This document shows positions 15,832 to 23,613 of a DNA stretch of 64,000 nucleotides, piece after piece (the stretch's first letter is position 1; the number at the start of each line of letters is the position of its first letter). The stretch comes from Antiquaquibacter metalliresistens. GTDB taxonomy: Bacteria > Actinomycetota > Actinomycetes > Actinomycetales > Microbacteriaceae. A model generated the notes under the pieces. The model made no database searches and was not told where the DNA came from. It saw only the letters and a program-made list of their open reading frames with translations. The DNA lies in assembly GCF_029211225.1 (NCBI RefSeq), contig NZ_JARGEM010000003.1:248001-312000 (forward strand), written 5' to 3'. A program made the position numbers and the translations under genes.

Positions 15832-16626
15832 CTAGGCCGCGACCCCGTACTTCTTCATCGCCGTCTCGACGATGGTGAGCCCCTCGAGCCCCGGCATGCG
15901 GGAGATGTGCTCGTCGAGCTTGCGGATCTCGCGCATCCCTTCCTCGCCGGAGAAGATGTGGCCCATCACGAAGTTGACCTCGACCGGGCCCATCACGCTC
16001 GAGCCGACCGGGCCCCACGCGTTCTTGAGCGCGAAGCGTGCGAGCACCTGGGCCTTCTTGCTGCCGGCGAGCCGCTCGCGCGCCTGGGTGGCGTAGAACG
16101 CGACGTGCCGCGCCTCCTGCTTGGCGATACGGCGCAGCAGTTCGGCGAGCACGGGGTGGTTCTCGAGGTCGGCCAGCCGGTTGTAGGCCGCGACGGCCGA
16201 CCACTCGTTCGCGGCGCCCCAGATCATGTGCACCGCGATGAAGTCCTTGCCGACGATGTTGCCCAGCAGCGACTGCTTGATCGGGTCGAGGCGGTCCTTC
16301 CAGCCGAGCTTGAGGCGGGTGGCCTTGAGCTCGTCGAAGTCCATCGTGATGCCGTGGGCGGCGAGCACGGCGGCGAGCGCCTCGCCGTGCCAGAACTCCT
16401 CGCGATTCCACATCGTCATGAAGGCCGAGACGTCGGCCTCCTTGTGGGACGGGGTGACCAGCAGGTCGCGCAGGTAGCAGACCGTGTGGTACTCGATCTC
16501 GGCCATGTAGCGCAGCGCGCGCAGGGTGTCGGGCGGCAGCGGATGCTCGGCGAAGTCCCCGAAGTCGAGATCCTGCCAGGCGACCTTCGTCGAGGTGCTC
16601 GTGTACTTGTCGATGTCAAAGGCCAT
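15832..16626 (-). CDS. Ferritin-fold diiron protein, acyl-ACP-desaturase-like, all ligands present
   Basis: 264 residues from ATG 16626. Two ExxH motifs are visible: NREEFWHGEAL (Glu77, His80) and KQEARHVAFY (Glu171, His174), plus Glu45 in helix 1 and Glu141 in ANEWSA. These six ligands match the soluble diiron fatty-acid desaturase pattern (EENRH and EKRH types). It could desaturate or oxidise an acyl or alkyl chain using O2. It lies 16 bases downstream of the acyl reductase-HAD gene and is paralogous to the product of the first gene of the same operon. In this context a lipid chain-modifying oxidase is likely; formation of the vinyl-ether bond of plasmalogens is one hypothesis. Confidence 0.72.
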   Translation of the reverse strand: MAFDIDKYTSTSTKVAWQDLDFGDFAEHPLPPDTLRALRYMAEIEYHTVCYLRDLLVTPSHKEADVSAFMTMWNREEFWHGEALAAVLAAHGITMDFDELKATRLKLGWKDRLDPIKQSLLGNIVGKDFIAVHMIWGAANEWSAVAAYNRLADLENHPVLAELLRRIAKQEARHVAFYATQARERLAGSKKAQVLARFALKNAWGPVGSSVMGPVEVNFVMGHIFSGEEGMREIRKLDEHISRMPGLEGLTIVETAMKKYGVAA

Positions 16627-16642
16627 GGCTACCGAAGCGGCG

Positions 16643-18970
16643 TCAAGACGCCCGCTCGACTCCTTCCGTGACGCTCGGGGTTTCGGGTGTGGAGCTGGTT
16701 GCACGAGGCGCCGGGGCGGGTCGGCGCTTCCAGTCAAGCACGTTCCAGTGCTTCTCACGCGCGTGTCGATAGAGCTGGATGTCCGGGTTCACGGCGTTCG
16801 GATGCCCGAGCAACTGCAGCCACACCAGATCGGCGTGACTGTCGCCGTAACCGTAGGAGTGTGCGAGGTCGTAGCCGTGCTGCGCCGCGTAGTGCCGCAG
16901 CCAGGCGGCACGTGCCTCGTCGACGAGCGGGGGGTCGGCGAGGAAGCCGGTGAGCACGCCATCGCGCTCCTGCATGCGGCCCGCGACCACCTCGTCGAAG
17001 AACGGCAGGAAGGGGGTGACCATGAGGTCGATCGAGCCGGTGACGAGGATGGTGCGGTGGCCGGCATCCCGGTGCTCCTGCACGCGCGCGAGCGCCTCGG
17101 GCAGGGCGCGGCGCAGCATGGCGCGCCCGAACCCGCCGCGCACCTCGCGCTCGATCTCGGCCACCTTGAAGCCCTGGTAGCGACGCATGAAGGTGCGGAT
17201 GAACTCGCCGCGGTCCCGACGTTCGGCGCGCAGGTACTTGCGCAGCGAGAACGCGAAGTTGGCGAGGTCGTGCGCGACCCGTGAACGCGGCACGGTGCCG
17301 GCCCACAGCGTGAGGTATTGCTTGACGAGGTTCGACTCGAGCACGGTGCCCTCGAGGTCGAAGACGGCGACGACATCGGATCGCGCGGGCAGCATCCGCG
17401 CGCCCCGCGCCTTGGCCGCGGGCCGCTTGCCGAACGCGCGGGTGAGGGTGGTGACGGCGGGGAAGTGGATTTGCTGGAAGTAGTGCTCCCAGTCGATCTC
17501 GAGCACGTCGAAGCCCTCGTCGGCGCGCACCTCGGGGGAGAGGGTCGCCAGCAGCGCCCTGGTGTTGGTGTCGTCGAAGATGATCTCGGTCTGCACGTAG
17601 GCGCGGTAGAGCTCCGTGAAGGCGCGCAACTGCTGCAGCCCGTGCTGGCCCTTGACTAGGGTGTCGAGCCAACGCCGGGTGCGCGGGGTGGTCGGCAGCT
17701 TCTCGACCCAGCGCTGGGCGCGCGCGGCCTGGCGCTCACGCTGCGTGAGCGCCTTCTCGACCTTCTGCCCACCCGGGAAGCGCCACTTCGGCACCCGGAT
17801 CTCGCCCTTCTCGTCGGGCAGAGGATTCGCCGTGAAGTAGGTGTGCACGTTCTCGTACATGCGGTGGAACGGCAGCGGATTAGTCTTGCCCGAGACCACC
17901 TGGAAGTACTTCGGTTCACGCGGCACGGCCGTGCGGGCGGCGACCGCGAGGGCGGCGTTGACGACGAAGTCGACGGGGATGACGTCGAGCACCGAATCGG
18001 GCAGGCCCGGGAAGTCGGGCAGCTGTCCGCGACCGTAGGCGATGATGAGCGGGTCGGCGACCTTGAAGCCGTCGATCCACCCCGGGAAGGGGTGGTGCAG
18101 CGCGCTCTCGATGATCGAGGGGCGCACGACCGACAGTCGGTGCCCGGCGTCGGCCCAGAGCTCTTCGGCCGCGCGCTCGGCGAAGGCCTTCGTGAGCGTG
18201 TAGACGTCGGTCCAGCCGAGGCTCTCGGCGCGGGTGCGGCCGTAGTCCACGAGCCGCTCGCGCACCCACTCGGTGCGCGCGGTCTCCGCGAAGGCGGCGA
18301 CCGCCTGCGGACCGGTCTTGCCGTGCCGCGCCTTCGCCCGCTCCAGCTGGCGGCGCAGCGCCTCCGGCTGCCGGGACTCGAGCTCGACGCGCACGCGGGC
18401 CGACTTCGCGGCCTCGTACTCGGCCCGCCAGTCGACGTCATGGGTGAGGGATGCCTCGGGCGCGATGCCCTTACGGATGCCGCCGACGTACGCCGTGGAG
18501 ATGTGCACGACGTGCGGGTCGCTCTTCGAGGCCAGGAGCGCCCCGTAGACGCCGTGCGCGCCGCCGACGTTGGTGTCGAACGCCTCGTCGATGGGCGGGT
18601 CGAACGAGACGGTGGATGCACTGTGCAGCACGACGTCGATGTCGTCGGGCAGGGTGCCCACGTTTGAGAGCGAGCCGTCGTGGGCGACGACGCGACGGGC
18701 CCACTGGCGCTTGGCCTCATCCTCGCCGACCCGTTCGATCCAGGAGGCGAACACGGGCTTGCGCAGCATGTTCGTCAGGCGCGCCGCCGGGCTCAGGCTG
18801 CCCTTGCCGCGCACGAGCACGGTGATGCGGGTGTCGGGATGCGACGACAGCAGTCGCTCGAGAATCGCCTGCCCGAGAAACCCGGTGCCGCCCGTGAGAA
18901 ACACGTGCTCGTTCGTGAGCACGGGCGCGTACTCGCTGTTCGCGGGGCTCACGATCTTCTTGGGACTCAC
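16643..18970 (-). CDS. Fatty acyl reductase (extended SDR) fused to a HAD-IB phosphatase-like domain
   Basis: 775 residues from GTG 18970, whose GTGA overlaps the previous stop. The N-terminal part is an NAD_binding_4 reductase: TGGTGFLG at 26-33, DVVLHSAS, STAYVGG, and catalytic Tyr257 and Lys261 in YTLTKAFAE. A Sterile-like C-terminal region follows. From about residue 530 a HAD-IB domain begins: DLEGTV with Asp538, LVTGSIDLMV, and YGYGDSHADLVWL. The reductase half is of the kind that reduces acyl-CoA or acyl carrier thioesters to aldehyde or alcohol; the HAD half may remove phosphate. Neighbouring alkyl-DHAP synthase would consume a fatty alcohol, which fits. The substrate of the HAD domain is unknown. 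Confidence 0.82.
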   Translation of the reverse strand: MSPKKIVSPANSEYAPVLTNEHVFLTGGTGFLGQAILERLLSSHPDTRITVLVRGKGSLSPAARLTNMLRKPVFASWIERVGEDEAKRQWARRVVAHDGSLSNVGTLPDDIDVVLHSASTVSFDPPIDEAFDTNVGGAHGVYGALLASKSDPHVVHISTAYVGGIRKGIAPEASLTHDVDWRAEYEAAKSARVRVELESRQPEALRRQLERAKARHGKTGPQAVAAFAETARTEWVRERLVDYGRTRAESLGWTDVYTLTKAFAERAAEELWADAGHRLSVVRPSIIESALHHPFPGWIDGFKVADPLIIAYGRGQLPDFPGLPDSVLDVIPVDFVVNAALAVAARTAVPREPKYFQVVSGKTNPLPFHRMYENVHTYFTANPLPDEKGEIRVPKWRFPGGQKVEKALTQRERQAARAQRWVEKLPTTPRTRRWLDTLVKGQHGLQQLRAFTELYRAYVQTEIIFDDTNTRALLATLSPEVRADEGFDVLEIDWEHYFQQIHFPAVTTLTRAFGKRPAAKARGARMLPARSDVVAVFDLEGTVLESNLVKQYLTLWAGTVPRSRVAHDLANFAFSLRKYLRAERRDRGEFIRTFMRRYQGFKVAEIEREVRGGFGRAMLRRALPEALARVQEHRDAGHRTILVTGSIDLMVTPFLPFFDEVVAGRMQERDGVLTGFLADPPLVDEARAAWLRHYAAQHGYDLAHSYGYGDSHADLVWLQLLGHPNAVNPDIQLYRHAREKHWNVLDWKRRPAPAPRATSSTPETPSVTEGVERAS

Positions 18971-19773
18971 AGTCGCGCGGCCTTCCGGATCAGCCCGAGG
19001 CTGGCCTGGCCGGGCAGCGTGTCCACGCGGGCGTCGAGCGCGGCGACGAGCTCCGGTGCGGAACGGAACAGGGTGTCGAAGAAGAACTCGGTCTCGTGGG
19101 CGGGCTCGGCCTTCGCGCCGATCGGCCACGGCGTCTTGGCGAGCCGCCGACGCACCAGGCGCTGCGAGCGGGGGGCGTCGGTCAGCCGGAACCGGGACTG
19201 CGCCTCGAAGAAGTCGAGCTGACGCTGCTTGATGGTCAGCAGCTCGGCGATCGTGGCCGACAGTCGCGCGTTGCCGGCGAGTTGCTCGATGCGCGTGTAG
19301 GCGGCCATGTTGAGCCATTGGTCGACCGTGCCGAGCGTCATGTGCACGGTGATCATCGGCAGGCCGATGATGTTGGCCACGATCGACTCCCGGATCGTGC
19401 GTTCCTCGGGGGTGGTGAACGGGGCGCGGTCGGGTTGTGTGCCTTCCGGGGCATGAACGAGCTGGATCTGCTCGAGCGCGTCCGCGATCCAGTACTTCTC
19501 GAACGCCCAGGTGGTCAGGAATGCGGTGATGCGCGCATCCTTGTGCGTCGCCGTCACGAGCACGCTGCGCAGATGGGTCATGGTGGCGCGTTCGACGATC
19601 TGCAGATAGCGCAGCAGGCGCAGCACGTCCGCGCTGAGCGGCGTTGCCCGGTAGGCGTCGAGTCCGAGCTGCTCGCGGTGCGTGCCGGCGGCGGTGCGCG
19701 CGTACTCCCGCACGTCGAAGTCGGGGGCCGGGAAGCGCATGATGTCGACGGGCGCCTCCTTCTGCTCCGGCAT
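18967..19773 (-). CDS. Ferritin-fold paralogue with degenerate metal site
   Basis: 268 residues from ATG 19773, chosen because GGAGGA stands directly before it; ATGs at 19785 and 19806 are possible. It aligns over its length with the downstream diiron protein, sharing LRYL, TWxxExYW, VHM and FxxxQxRxRL. In numbering from 19806, only Glu72 of the six ligands remains; the others are Lys104, Ile107, Gln163, Lys193 and Gln196. It is therefore very unlikely to hold a diiron centre. First gene of a three-gene operon with the reductase-HAD and the catalytic paralogue; a structural partner or regulatory subunit is the likeliest role. Confidence 0.72.
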   Translation of the reverse strand: MPEQKEAPVDIMRFPAPDFDVREYARTAAGTHREQLGLDAYRATPLSADVLRLLRYLQIVERATMTHLRSVLVTATHKDARITAFLTTWAFEKYWIADALEQIQLVHAPEGTQPDRAPFTTPEERTIRESIVANIIGLPMITVHMTLGTVDQWLNMAAYTRIEQLAGNARLSATIAELLTIKQRQLDFFEAQSRFRLTDAPRSQRLVRRRLAKTPWPIGAKAEPAHETEFFFDTLFRSAPELVAALDARVDTLPGQASLGLIRKAARL

Positions 19774-19821: not shown

Positions 19822-19842
19822 ACGCTACGGGGCCCGTAGCGT
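19822..19842. promoter_or_regulatory. 21-bp palindromic operator between divergent lipid genes
   Basis: Arms ACGCTACGGG and CCCGTAGCGT flank one central G, a perfect inverted repeat. It fills the spacer between a -35-like CTGACG (19819-19824) and a -10 TAAGCT (19842-19847) for the rightward gene; a leftward -10 TAGACT lies at 19813-19808. A repressor here would silence both arms. The TetR gene adjoining the end of the rightward operon is the obvious candidate. Confidence 0.75.
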
Positions 19843-19854
19843 AAGCTCAGCGTC

Positions 19855-20667
19855 ATGGCAACGGCTCTGATCACGGGCGGAACCTCCGGCATCGGTGCAG
19901 AGTTCGCCCGCCAGCTGGCTGCCGAAGGGCACGATCTCGTGCTCGTGGCGAGGGACGCGGCGCGTCTCGAGACGAGTGCCGCCCAACTCCATGCCGCGTA
20001 CGGCATCAATGTCGAGAGTCTTCGCGCCGATCTCGGCGATCGTGCGGATGTCGCCCGTGTCGCAGCCCGCATCGGCGACGCCGCGCGTCCCATCGATGTG
20101 CTCGTCAACAGCGCCGGGTTCGCGGTGCACGCCCCGCTCGCCTCGGCGGACACGGCCCAGCATGAACATGCCTTCGAAGTCATGTGTCGCGCGATTCTGG
20201 TGCTCGGCGGCGCGGCGGCCCGGGCGATGCGCGGTCGTGGTGGCCGCATCATCACCATCTCCAGCCTGCAGAGCTTCCTCGCGACCGGCTCGTACGCGGC
20301 GATCAAGGCCTGGGTCACCGCATACAGCCAGAGCTTGGCCGTCGAACTGCGCGGCACCGGCATCACGGTGACCGCCGTGTTGCCGGGGTGGGTGCGCACC
20401 GAGTGGCACGAGCGCTCCGGCGGCCGCCGCAGCAACCTGCCCGGGTTCCTGTGGACGCAACCGCAGGCGGTGGTGCGCATCGCCTTGCGCGATTCGCGCC
20501 GCGGCAAGGTGGTGTGCATACCCACGGTTCGGTACCGAGTGCTCGGATGGTTTGCCCGGCACCTTCCGCAACGCACGATCCGGTGGGTCTCGGCCGGTAT
20601 CTCCTCATCCGGAAGGGCGGGCGGCTCCGAACAGCAGGATGTGACCCCCGCGAAGGCCCGACCCTAG
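19855..20667 (+). CDS. Short-chain dehydrogenase/reductase, likely ether-lipid or acyl-lipid keto reductase
   Basis: 270 residues. Classical SDR features: nucleotide motif TGGTSGIG at 7-14, NSAG at 85-88, ISS before the active site, and Tyr147 with Lys151 in SYAAIKAW. The -10 box TAAGCT ends seven bases before the ATG, so a leaderless transcript is likely, with an operator palindrome on top. The next gene begins on the following base. In the context of an alkyl-DHAP synthase it may reduce alkyl- or acyl-DHAP to the glycerol-3-phosphate form; that step is inferred, as SDR substrate cannot be read from motifs. The C-terminal 25 residues look disordered. Confidence 0.82.
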   Translation: MATALITGGTSGIGAEFARQLAAEGHDLVLVARDAARLETSAAQLHAAYGINVESLRADLGDRADVARVAARIGDAARPIDVLVNSAGFAVHAPLASADTAQHEHAFEVMCRAILVLGGAAARAMRGRGGRIITISSLQSFLATGSYAAIKAWVTAYSQSLAVELRGTGITVTAVLPGWVRTEWHERSGGRRSNLPGFLWTQPQAVVRIALRDSRRGKVVCIPTVRYRVLGWFARHLPQRTIRWVSAGISSSGRAGGSEQQDVTPAKARP

Positions 20668-21360
20668 ATGCCCACGTACGACCGGTTCACTTCGCGGACG
20701 ATGGCGACCGCGCGGTTCGTCGCGCAGCGCGGGCTGCTCAAGCCCCTCGTCTGGCGGCTCACCAGGGTCTCGGTGCACGGGCTCGACGACATCGCCGCGC
20801 TGGACGCACCGTTCATCGTGGTCGCCAACCACTCCAGCCACCTGGATGCGCCGTTGATCATCGGGGCGCTGCCGCGGCGCAAGGCCCGGTACCTCGCCGC
20901 CGGTGCCGCCGCCGACTACTTCTTCGACGTCCGCTGGCGCAAGTGGCTCACGACCCTCTTCTTCAACGCGTTCGCGATCGAGCGCAATTCCGAGGGCAAG
21001 CGCACCGGGTCATCCCGTTCGCTGCTCGAGCGCGGGGTGCCGCTGCTGATCTTCCCGGAGGGCGGGCGTTCGAAGACCGGGCAGCTCGGTCGCTTCAAGC
21101 CGGGAGCCGCTGCGCTGTCGATCGCGACGGGCGCGCCCTGCCTGCCGACGGCGATCGTGGGAGCGAGCACCGCGATGCCGCGTGGCGTGAACTGGCCGAA
21201 ACGCGGCAGACTGCCGGTGGCCGTGGTGTTCGGGGCGCCGATGACGCGCGCCGAGGGCGAAACCGCGGAAGAATTCACCCACCGCATCCACGACGCGGTG
21301 CAGATACTGCACGAGAGGATCCTGCCGCTGCCGGCCGGATCGCACCGAGGTACCCGATGA
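20668..21360 (+). CDS. PlsC-family 1-acyl(alkyl)-glycerol-3-phosphate acyltransferase
   Basis: 230 residues. The acyltransferase motifs are NHSSHLD (His55, Asp60) and FPEGGRSKTG at 129-138, followed by LPTAIVGA. Such enzymes add an acyl chain to position 2 of lysophosphatidate-type substrates at the membrane. It begins directly after the SDR stop and its stop overlaps an ATG in the next gene's frame, so the three genes form one unit. In this setting the acceptor may be 1-alkyl-glycerol-3-phosphate. Confidence 0.88.
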   Translation: MPTYDRFTSRTMATARFVAQRGLLKPLVWRLTRVSVHGLDDIAALDAPFIVVANHSSHLDAPLIIGALPRRKARYLAAGAAADYFFDVRWRKWLTTLFFNAFAIERNSEGKRTGSSRSLLERGVPLLIFPEGGRSKTGQLGRFKPGAAALSIATGAPCLPTAIVGASTAMPRGVNWPKRGRLPVAVVFGAPMTRAEGETAEEFTHRIHDAVQILHERILPLPAGSHRGTR

Positions 21361-21371
21361 CAGGAGCAGGC

Positions 21372-23042
21372 ATGACCGACGTCAAGCACATGAAGTGGTG
21401 GGGCTGGGGCCTCGACGGGGTGGGGTTCCACCACGAGGACAAGCCCGGCTTCGCGCCCTTCGTGCTCGAGGCCGTCGGCCTCGACCTGAAGACGGCGACC
21501 ACCGCGGTCGAGCCCTCGTTCGACGAGCTCGAGGTGCCGAAGTCCAAGGCGTCGGCGGCGTTCGTGAAGGCGCTCACCGCCATCGTCGGCGCCGAGCACG
21601 CGACCACCGACGACATGGTGCGCGTCATCCACACCTATGGCAAGTCGCTGCGCGACCTGGTGCGCATTCGCGGCAACATGATCCTGCGTGCGCCCGACGT
21701 CGTGGTGTACCCGGCCGACGAGGCCCAGGTGCAGGCGATCGTGGATGCTGCGGTCGCCGCAGACGCGGTCATCATCCCGTTCGGCGGCGGCAGCAACATC
21801 GCCGGCAGCCTCGAGCCGATCCCCGCGGAGAAGCGCACCATCGTCTCGCTCGACCTCGGCCGGCTGCGCGAGGTCGTCGACATCGACGCCGATTCGGGCC
21901 TCGCCCGCATCCAGGCCGGCGCACAAGGGCCGGACCTCGAGGCCCAGCTCAAGGCCAAGGGGTGGACCATCGGTCACTTCCCGGACTCCTTCACGCACTC
22001 GACCGTCGGCGGCTGGGTCGCGACGCGCTCGAGCGGCATGCAGTCCGACAAGTACGGCGACATCGCCGACATCGCGCGCGGCATGCGCGTGGTGCGTCCC
22101 GGCGGCGTGCTGGTGCTGCGTCCGCTGCCGAGCACGTCGAGCGGACCGAGTGTGCGCGAGATGATCCTCGGCTCGGAGGGCCGCCTCGGCGTCATCACCG
22201 AGGTCACCGTGCAGGTGCATCGCATCCCGGCCAAGCGCGACGTCTACGCCTACTTCTTCCCGAACTGGAAGGCCGGCATCGCCGCGATGCAGGAGATCAG
22301 CGAGTCGGATGCCACGCCATCGATCACCCGCATCTCCGACTCCAACGAGACCGGCTTCTCGCTCGCGACGAGCAAGGACCGCAAGGGCTTCGACAAGTTC
22401 CTCGCGGGCACGGTGCTGCCCGGGCTCATGAAGTCGAAGGGCTGGAACCTCGACGACATCTGCTTGAGCTTCATCGGGTACGAGGGCAGCGTGTCCCACG
22501 CCAAGCGTCAGAAGAAGCTCGTCGATGCGATCGTCAAGAAGCACGGCGGCATGGGCGTGGGCACGGGCCCCGGCATCCTCTACGACCAGAAGAAGTTCGA
22601 CACCCCCTATCTGCGCGACTTCCTGCTCGACCGGGGGGCGGCCGGCGACGTCTCGGAGACCGCGGCGCCGTGGTCGAAGCTCATCGCCGTGCACGAGAAC
22701 GCCTACGCCGCGGCCCAGGGCGCCTACGACCAGCTCGGCATCAAGGGCTGGATCATGTCGCACCTCTCGCACTCGTACCACTCGGGGGCGTGCCTCTACT
22801 TCACCTTCGCCTTCGTGTTCGACAAGGATCCGATCGCCGAGTACAACCTGGTGAAGAACGCGATCCAGCAGTCCTTCGTCGACAGCGGCGCGACGATCTC
22901 GCACCACCACGGCGTGGGCGTCGAGCATTCGCCGTGGCTGTCGCAGGACATCTCCGAGCAGGGCGTGGTCGTGATGCGCGCGCTGCTCGAGGGTGCGGAT
23001 GCCGGGGCCAACTTCAACCCGGGCAAGGTGCTGCCGCGCTGA
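21372..23042 (+). CDS. FAD-dependent alkyldihydroxyacetonephosphate synthase-like oxidase
   Basis: 556 residues from ATG 21372, chosen because AGGAG (21362-21366) precedes it; ATG 21357 would overlap the previous stop. The vanillyl-alcohol-oxidase type FAD domain shows PFGGGSNIAGSL near 137, the family segment SFTHSTVGGWVATRSSGM, and SEGRLGVITEV. The C-terminus has the triple-histidine HHHGVG (His511-513), characteristic of alkyl-DHAP synthase, which exchanges the acyl group of acyl-DHAP for a fatty alcohol to form an ether bond. Context with an acyl reductase, SDR and PlsC supports ether lipid synthesis. The gene ends one base before the convergent TetR gene. Confidence 0.85.
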   Translation: MTDVKHMKWWGWGLDGVGFHHEDKPGFAPFVLEAVGLDLKTATTAVEPSFDELEVPKSKASAAFVKALTAIVGAEHATTDDMVRVIHTYGKSLRDLVRIRGNMILRAPDVVVYPADEAQVQAIVDAAVAADAVIIPFGGGSNIAGSLEPIPAEKRTIVSLDLGRLREVVDIDADSGLARIQAGAQGPDLEAQLKAKGWTIGHFPDSFTHSTVGGWVATRSSGMQSDKYGDIADIARGMRVVRPGGVLVLRPLPSTSSGPSVREMILGSEGRLGVITEVTVQVHRIPAKRDVYAYFFPNWKAGIAAMQEISESDATPSITRISDSNETGFSLATSKDRKGFDKFLAGTVLPGLMKSKGWNLDDICLSFIGYEGSVSHAKRQKKLVDAIVKKHGGMGVGTGPGILYDQKKFDTPYLRDFLLDRGAAGDVSETAAPWSKLIAVHENAYAAAQGAYDQLGIKGWIMSHLSHSYHSGACLYFTFAFVFDKDPIAEYNLVKNAIQQSFVDSGATISHHHGVGVEHSPWLSQDISEQGVVVMRALLEGADAGANFNPGKVLPR

Positions 23043-23043
23043 G

Positions 23044-23613
23044 TCAGCGTGCCTCGAACGCCGGCCAGATCAAGCCGAGCACGGACTCGACCCAGGCGTC
23101 GTCGGTCTCCCGTCCACGGATGAGCTCGGCGATCACCACGCCGAGCAGCATGCTCATCACGAGTTCGATGTCGATCTCGTCGGGGATCTCGCCGGCCTCG
23201 ACCCGGGCACGCAGCGTGTCGCGGAGGGGGCGGGTGGAGGTGCGGATCATCTCCAGCAGCAGGGTGGTGAACTCCGGGTCTTCGTTGGCGAGCACCGCGG
23301 CGACCGTACCGCGGCCGATCACCTGCTCGATCGTGTCGCTGGCGTTGCGCAGCACCCAGCCGAGCGTCTCACGGGTCGTCAGGTCGGTGGGGATCGCGAC
23401 GGCCGCCGACGCCGAGGTCACCACCCCGGTCAGCAGCGAGGCGCGGTTGGAGAACCGGCGGTAGATCGTGGTCTTGGCGACACCGGAGGCGGCGGCCACG
23501 GATTCGACGCTCACCGCGAGCGGCCCACGACTGCGCAGAATGTCGAGCGTCGCCGCGACGATGCGCTCGTCCGCCTTGGAGCGGCGAGCGGGCTGCACGA
23601 GCGGGCTCGTCAT
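23044..23613 (-). CDS. TetR-family transcriptional regulator
   Basis: 189 residues. N-terminal HTH: SVESVAAASGVAKTTIYRRF, the typical TetR recognition region, followed by a helical ligand-binding domain. A minus-strand -10 TATCAT (23625-23620) lies six bases before the ATG and overlaps the end of the upstream TetR gene, so it can be transcribed on its own. It converges with the ether-lipid operon with a one-base gap. It is the best candidate to bind the 21-bp palindrome at 19822-19842, possibly in response to a lipid. Confidence 0.88.
   Translation of the reverse strand: MTSPLVQPARRSKADERIVAATLDILRSRGPLAVSVESVAAASGVAKTTIYRRFSNRASLLTGVVTSASAAVAIPTDLTTRETLGWVLRNASDTIEQVIGRGTVAAVLANEDPEFTTLLLEMIRTSTRPLRDTLRARVEAGEIPDEIDIELVMSMLLGVVIAELIRGRETDDAWVESVLGLIWPAFEAR

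Follow-up and report, generated by a model that had tools for sequence, protein, structure and literature searches.

The window, that is, the whole stretch of 64,000 nucleotides from Antiquaquibacter metalliresistens analysed here, contains a group of genes with the following features:

15832–16626, minus strand: FerA, a ferritin-fold diiron protein of 264 amino acids with six ligands, the predicted catalytic subunit.
16643–18970, minus strand: FAR-HAD, a fatty acyl-CoA reductase (NAD_binding_4) with a fused HAD-IB phosphatase-like domain.
18967–19773, minus strand: FerB, a paralogue of FerA that has lost the diiron ligands, a predicted pseudo-subunit.
19823–19841, no strand: palindrome CGCTACG-N5-CGTAGCG between the divergent operons, a predicted TetR operator.
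19855–20667, plus strand: SDR oxidoreductase, the putative alkyl-DHAP reductase.
20668–21360, plus strand: PlsC-type acyltransferase, presumably acting on DHAP or alkyl-glycerophosphate.
21357–23042, plus strand: AGPS, an alkyl-DHAP synthase orthologue that matches solved ADPS structures.
23044–23613, minus strand: TetR-family regulator, the likely regulator of both operons.

The genes of FerB and FerA lie on either side of the FAR-HAD gene, whereas those of SDR, PlsC and AGPS diverge from FerB, and the TetR gene is the next after AGPS and convergent with it. FerB starts with an ATG at 19773, its stop codon overlaps the GTG start of FAR-HAD (18970) by 4 bp (GTGA), and the PlsC gene begins at the first base after the SDR stop. 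In the Subtercola loci (L054–L061) and the Labedella-type loci L038 and L053, an insert of about 2.5 kb separates FAR-HAD from FerA, which in most of them carries a second, weakly PlsC-like gene.

The AGPS protein (P0003) matches solved alkyl-DHAP synthases (2uuu, E 5.9e-114; 4bby, E 4.9e-82), its best match outside the AGPS family having an E-value of 2.1e-21, and aligns with solved ADPS through both its HHH motif and its stretch of tyrosines, elements with a catalytic role in ADPS. Residues 18–508 of FAR-HAD match the fatty acyl-CoA reductase structure 7eoz (E 3.8e-50), and the reductase, acyltransferase and SDR domains of an aerobic AGPS-type pathway are all present at the locus. The SDR and PlsC proteins fit the roles of alkyl-DHAP reductase and acyltransferase, with presumed substrates. 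The mammalian aerobic pathway, as given in the available part of PMC9131029, comprises reductase, acyltransferase, AGPS and alkyl-DHAP reductase activities.

FerA and FerB are homologous (BLASTP, 28% identity over 259 amino acids, E 1e-37). An earlier note on this DNA had described them as a pair of ferritin-fold paralogues, one of them with intact and the other with lost diiron ligands, and both reading frames and the exact residues have been borne out: FerA of the window carries E45, E77, H80, E141, E171 and H174, and FerB shows E, K, I, Q, K and Q at the aligned columns. In an alignment of proteins from loci of many genera, with rows shorter than 200 amino acids removed and identical rows counted as one, all six ligands are kept in 123 of 123 distinct FerA, and the pattern E...ExxH...E...ExxH is found in every one of these and in none of the 101 distinct FerB (an earlier count was smaller, with 49 FerA and 39 FerB). 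Among the latter, E45 is kept in 99, E77 is replaced by K in 95, H80 by I, L, V or M in 98, and E171 by K or R in 95; three ligands are kept in 56 proteins, two in 32, one in 11 and none in two. The ligand split is not a matter of chance, since all 123 FerA are intact and the replacements in FerB are consistent in 101 homologues, and the recurrence of identical replacements indicates that the lost site seems to be maintained rather than decaying. Judging from the alignment, the split is old. The same consistency rules out a sequencing error or a false reading frame as the source of FerB, and the counts, with no FerB keeping more than three of the six ligands, support the arrangement of a catalytic protein plus a pseudoenzyme that the earlier note proposed. 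Yeast Rnr2/Rnr4 is a diiron heteromer with a non-catalytic subunit, which likewise joins a catalytic protein to a ligand-less paralogue, but in another family and for another reaction, the FerA:FerB complex being a proposed one.

The fold of FerA was modelled on the L038 protein with an alignment of 20 sequences including FerA of the window (mean pLDDT 83.9, with residues 105–124 below 50). The nine top structure matches are plant acyl-ACP desaturases, with Z from 18.4 to 17.2 (castor acyl-ACP desaturase: Z 18.4, rmsd 3.0, 230 aligned residues), followed by DesA2 of M. tuberculosis in tenth place (Z 16.7), the azoxy synthase VlmB (Z 15.8), R2-like oxidases and RNR R2 (Z of at most 15.6) and, below the desaturases, the Kitasatospora aldehyde-deformylating protein 6d9f (Z 15.1). 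A match to the de novo designed bundle 9u78 was regarded as one of composition. Foldseek on the same model gave no match with E <0.001 and ranked acyl-ACP desaturases first. The model of FerB from the window (mean pLDDT 87.6) also finds desaturases first (Z 17.1, rmsd 3.4, 237 aligned residues), with other ferritin-like folds less separated from them. In terms of sequence families, the acyl-ACP desaturase family PF03405 is matched weakly by all 20 scanned FerA (E <0.01, best 2.8e-5), with 19.8 bits for FerA of the window, under the gathering cut-off of 22.7, and 17.4 bits for that of L038; neither FerA nor FerB of the window exceeds the Pfam cut-offs, and FerB has no family match within the limits applied. 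Rubrerythrin, COQ7 and AcsF were discarded as families for FerA, the matches being weak and both the window protein and that of L038 lying below the cut-offs.

In a profile alignment with DesA2, E141, E171 and H174 of FerA are paired with E, E and H. Going by the fold ranking, the PF03405 matches and this alignment of ligands, FerA seems to be a remote sister lineage of the soluble diiron desaturases, and its predicted activity as a diiron desaturase or oxygenase can be held with considerable confidence. The ligand pattern of castor stearoyl-ACP desaturase is E...ExxH...E...ExxH, and FerA shares with soluble acyl-ACP desaturases (PF03405; castor, DesA2) both the fold and these six ligands. However, it is 12–17% identical to them and scores below the Pfam gathering threshold, its gene sits among those for ether lipids, and it is partnered by a ligand-less paralogue.

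The six genes are found together in 60 of 80 relatives' loci, within the stretch fetched for each; these 80 come from the top of a score-ranked list of 234 relatives and therefore do not sample them at random. The same holds for 31 of 40 further loci (L013–L052, two of them from one genome). Gene order varies, with all six genes on one strand in L043 and yet another order in L100; in three Jiangella loci (L133–L135), in L136 (genome G047) and in L138 (G145) the four ether genes are grouped and FerA stands apart, in L138 about 7 kb beyond the other four. Across 299 Microbacteriaceae genomes, FerA (called at E <1e-100) occurs in 91 and an AGPS orthologue in 85, with both in 83, FerA only in eight, AGPS only in two and neither in 206, so that presence or absence is joint in 289 (Fisher p 1e-61, kinship ignored). 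Each of the 91 FerA genomes has at least one second match to FerA among the matches listed. The expectation that the paralogues would always occur together next to alkyl-DHAP synthase thus holds for most genomes, 83 of the 91 with FerA having AGPS, and fails for seven, where the pair occurs without an AGPS orthologue, the eighth (G155) being cut by a contig end. As for the ten exceptions as a whole, G155 and G161 (AGPS only) are such contig-end cuts, in the incomplete genome G149 the four ether genes occur and the pair is missing from their vicinity, and the remaining seven, from genera g47, g79 and part of g101, carry FerA and FerB without an AGPS orthologue.

Pairs of this last kind also come from named organisms: in Leifsonia flava, Leifsonia sp. 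Leaf264 and five Agromyces, AGPS goes unmatched at E 1e-30 although the pair is present, and Glaciibacter flavus has the pair and no AGPS within its locus, which was the extent covered. Such pairs in Leifsonia, Agromyces and the genera named above imply that, at any rate in these lineages, a different substrate may be used. In a tree of FerA built by a quick method, with modest supports and with 20 rows of unknown AGPS state left uncounted, 12 AGPS-less Microbacteriaceae rows fall in one group of 16 (support 91, not starred), which also holds three AGPS-linked rows and is nested in a starred clade of 33; the AGPS-linkage label changes five times overall and three times by starred branches alone. 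The idea that AGPS-less pairs form a separate old family is rejected, given their place among AGPS-linked FerA, which fits a late loss of AGPS or a shift of substrate in those lineages. FerA is whole in L126 (Homoserinibacter gongjuensis), whereas AGPS and FAR-HAD are matched there as several fragments, through either sequencing errors or decay.

Beyond the family, a class sample of 394 genomes (FerA at E <1e-100, AGPS at 600 bits or more) gave 22 genomes with both genes, five with FerA only, 15 with AGPS only and 352 with neither. AGPS orthologues without FerA thus make up 15 of 37, and 13 of them are from genus g146, where the orthologue is 58–60% identical (13 genomes) and, in L171 and L172, is solitary, 19 kb of sequence giving no match to FAR, SDR, PlsC or either Fer protein. 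In four Jiangella genomes AGPS is present and FerA is matched once, whereas FerB is not found at E 0.001; the same pattern is seen in 12 genomes of g148 (search at E 1e-15). FerB is therefore not universal, and the separate occurrence of the paralogues, which the earlier note had counted against its proposal, is seen in Jiangella, where FerA has no detectable FerB. In Haloactinopolyspora alba, FerA is matched once and AGPS not at all at E 1e-30, and remoter FerA (39–56% identity) occur in other families without an AGPS orthologue. On the other side, FerA goes unmatched in five genomes of the window's own genus (G001, G005, G010, G025 and G026), and the AGPS orthologue is missing from all of these as well, the AGPS query reaching 37.7 to 42.4 bits at best. 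In a further genome of this genus, G011, a FerA-like remnant of 39 residues (C1:2663298–2663414, 62% identity to residues 198–236) is possibly the trace of a lost cluster.

The palindrome offers a hint about the regulation of the locus. Matches to CGCTACG-N2-7-CGTAGCG number 39 in a set of 171 sequences (2.3 Mb in total, with certain genomes included twice), and there are none in three base shuffles of them; 33 fall within the gap between SDR and FerB, and the other six lie directly ahead of a TetR1-like gene. Of the FerB/SDR gaps, 33 of 91 (31 of 86 distinct ones) carry the pattern; Plantibacter and two other loci have it ahead of the TetR gene, and no match occurs in the loci of Subtercola and Agreia. 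A TetR1-like gene is found in 43 AGPS-bearing sequences, including the window, and within 300 bp of AGPS in 29 of them. A scan for sigma-70 promoters found none. The palindrome is likely the operator of an ether-lipid regulon, and its occurrence in the shared gap and, elsewhere, upstream of the TetR gene suggests that both operons form one regulon, to which the TetR protein would bind.

Neither the known plasmalogen desaturase nor the marker of the anaerobic route was found in the genomes searched for it. The membrane desaturase CarF (PF10520) is absent, by profile search, from 60 of 60 genomes, the window's own and 59 relatives, which confirms that no CarF/TMEM189-type enzyme accompanies the cluster, as the earlier note had stated, and rules out one elsewhere in the window's genome. 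The absence is meaningful because the model does match elsewhere in the phylum, exceeding its cut-off in 17 of 396 genomes; one of the CarF-negative genomes, G033, carries a FerA (L014) that falls inside the Subtercola clade of the tree. The strong PF10520 matches in those 17 Actinomycetota genomes (L169, L170 and others) are from other families, f69 and f98. Beyond myxobacteria, the available part of PMC9131029 names true bacterial CarF homologues only in Leptospira. A joint occurrence of FerA and CarF was rejected, FerA being absent from all 14 CarF genomes tested (of 18 matched), in a search that held no positive row itself, the same query giving matches in other genome sets. As for DUF2229, the marker of the anaerobic plasmalogen operon, it is absent from 14 of 14 cluster-bearing genomes and matches in four of 14 controls. 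The organism of that operon is a Clostridium. The operon (Jackson et al. 2021, cited in PMC9131029) also makes bacterial vinyl ethers, but differs in being reductive and in starting from an ester, according to the portion of PMC9131029 available. Among the matches listed in a literature search, there is no account of the cluster or of an aerobic plasmalogen desaturase other than CarF.

The comparison with CarF/TMEM189/PEDS1 is closer in chemistry than in protein, since the reaction proposed here is identical, an O2-dependent conversion of alkyl into vinyl ether after AGPS, whereas PEDS1 is a PF10520 membrane protein and FerA and FerB have no PF10520 match and are modelled as ferritin-like helical folds. 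The substrates may also differ: those of PEDS1 are ethanolamine lipids, while the identified polar lipids of the relatives are PG, DPG and glycolipids in the accessible text of PMC5945732 and PMC7033078. Phosphatidylethanolamine is mentioned for two Herbiconiux species in the part of PMC10011130 available.

Dimethyl acetals (DMAs) of relatives, which are tied to the genes through species or genus name alone, provide a further line of evidence; the papers cited for them are used in the portions available. DMAs in Subtercola have been on record since 2000 (as cited in PMC5945732 and PMC7472656), and they are indicative of plasmalogens according to a Kineococcus paper (PMC7472656). Iso-16:0 DMA makes up 11.9–17.0% in S. 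vilae, S. frigoramans and S. boreus and 6.9% in S. lobariae, and Agreia is given iso-15:0 DMA of at most 4%, with major DMAs marked as not detected in the comparison table of the same source (PMC5945732). The cluster is present in S. vilae DB165, S. lobariae and Agreia bicolorata, and in three S. boreus records that are not named as the type strain. In Kineococcus rubinsiae, the peak called "C14:0 2-OH" by MIDI was anteiso-15:0 DMA by GC-MS (PMC7472656). By MIDI, 2OH-C14:0 amounts to 3.9–15.6% in four Subtercola type strains, the same ones with DMAs in PMC5945732, and is given as not detected in S. endophyticus (PMC9287328). C14:0 2-OH is listed at 17.0% in Frigoribacterium faeni and 4.2% in Glaciihabitans tibetensis (PMC7033078), and F. 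adelgis shows a 15:0 anteiso aldehyde/DMA feature, with two other Frigoribacterium species reported there without aldehyde/DMA peaks (PMC12823222); the cluster is found in G. tibetensis and two Frigoribacterium MAGs. Frondihabitans is said to be without DMAs, yet 14:0 2-OH is listed for it (PMC5945732). Lacisediminihabitans profunda has C14:0 2-OH in traces or undetected (PMC7033078), the cluster being present in a different species of that genus. For Herbiconiux (PMC10011130) and Salinibacterium (PMC10713820), the available text names major acids only, with no DMA. The C14:0 2-OH of Subtercola, Frigoribacterium and Glaciihabitans in MIDI profiles may be misread anteiso-15:0 DMA, and plasmalogens could therefore be under-reported in aerobic actinobacteria.

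Taken together, FerA, with FerB as its pseudo-subunit, is the probable converter of alkyl into vinyl ether, and with CarF/TMEM189 not found the pair is the best candidate for the plasmalogen-forming enzyme of these aerobic soil and water bacteria. The strongest alternative would make FerA an acyl-ACP or acyl-CoA desaturase, which feeds FAR or serves ordinary lipids, while an unrecognised enzyme makes the vinyl ether. The fold and the weak Pfam matches do point to acyl-ACP desaturases, one section of the tree has the pair but not AGPS, and unsaturated acids are reported in relatives: "anteiso-C15:1 A" at 1.5–2.7% in two of them (PMC7033078), summed feature 8 (C18:1) at 0.8–76.7% in five Subtercola strains (PMC9287328) and C18:1 or C17:1 in some Herbiconiux (PMC10011130), as far as the parts of these papers available go. 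However, almost no unsaturated acids are given in the accessible text of PMC5945732 for S. vilae and two more of these Subtercola species, so that the C18:1 values are inconsistent between laboratories, and both the joint presence or absence of AGPS and FerA in 289 of 299 genomes and the nesting of AGPS-less Microbacteriaceae FerA within AGPS-linked ones speak against this reading, which is unlikely.

A still more doubtful one sees in FerA an oxygenase, aldehyde-deformylating or other, whose substrate is the FAR aldehyde or alcohol, in alkane formation or hydroxylation, or else an oxygenase that cleaves alkyl ethers. FAR would indeed give aldehyde or alcohol, its gene is flanked by those of FerA and FerB, and 6d9f is among the fold matches, but about 3 Z units lower than the acyl-ACP desaturases; these species are not known to form hydrocarbons, and the dimethyl acetals would stay unexplained. 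Equally improbable is a role of the pair outside ether lipids, for some other lipid or a cofactor, with the genes as mere neighbours. This could be argued from the AGPS-less pairs of Leifsonia and Agromyces and from remote FerA whose genomes have no AGPS orthologue, but the linkage survives several gene arrangements, the FerB stop overlaps the FAR-HAD start, the palindrome is shared, and FerA and AGPS are both absent from the five window-genus genomes. That the FerA/FerB pair belongs to the ether pathway is, in any case, very likely.

The formation of a vinyl ether by FerA with FerB can be drawn as an aerobic plasmalogen pathway encoded at the locus. The homology, ligand split, fold, linkage, co-occurrence and shared palindrome were computed; the reaction, the stage of the substrate, the electron donor, the heteromer and the binding of TetR are inferred. 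FAR-HAD would produce the fatty alcohol, and PlsC, AGPS and SDR would lead to 1-alkyl-glycerol-3-phosphate by the DHAP route. FerA would then use O2, together with two electrons supplied by a general ferredoxin or reductase, to introduce the 1'-2' double bond of the vinyl ether. In soluble desaturases, a peroxo-level oxidant removes hydrogens from acyl chains; likewise, diferrous FerA would react with O2 to give a peroxo-level oxidant, which may take hydrogens off C1' and C2' of the alkyl chain. FerB, with its fold kept and its metal site lost, would be a stabilising, docking or membrane-recruiting partner, and the two lysines that replace glutamate ligands may form salt bridges that fill the empty metal cavity.

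A last point concerns the place of this pathway among aerobic bacteria, from which plasmalogens are usually said to be absent except for myxobacteria, the described O2-dependent desaturase being CarF/PEDS1 (both in the available part of PMC9131029). A soluble FerA resembling acyl-ACP desaturases would do, together with a pseudoenzyme, the job of the unrelated membrane protein CarF/PEDS1 in myxobacteria and animals, and we lean slightly towards the whole of this broader proposal, that is, a third independent plasmalogen route in aerobic Actinomycetota, with FerA plus AGPS predicting the producers and part of the "C14:0 2-OH" being misread anteiso-15:0 DMA. The DMAs of Subtercola have been reported without genes found for them, and the locus offers a complete candidate pathway. 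If true, the pair would add a soluble plasmalogen desaturase with a pseudoenzyme partner to compare with the human membrane enzyme, and the presence of FerA and AGPS would indicate which aerobic actinobacteria make plasmalogens.
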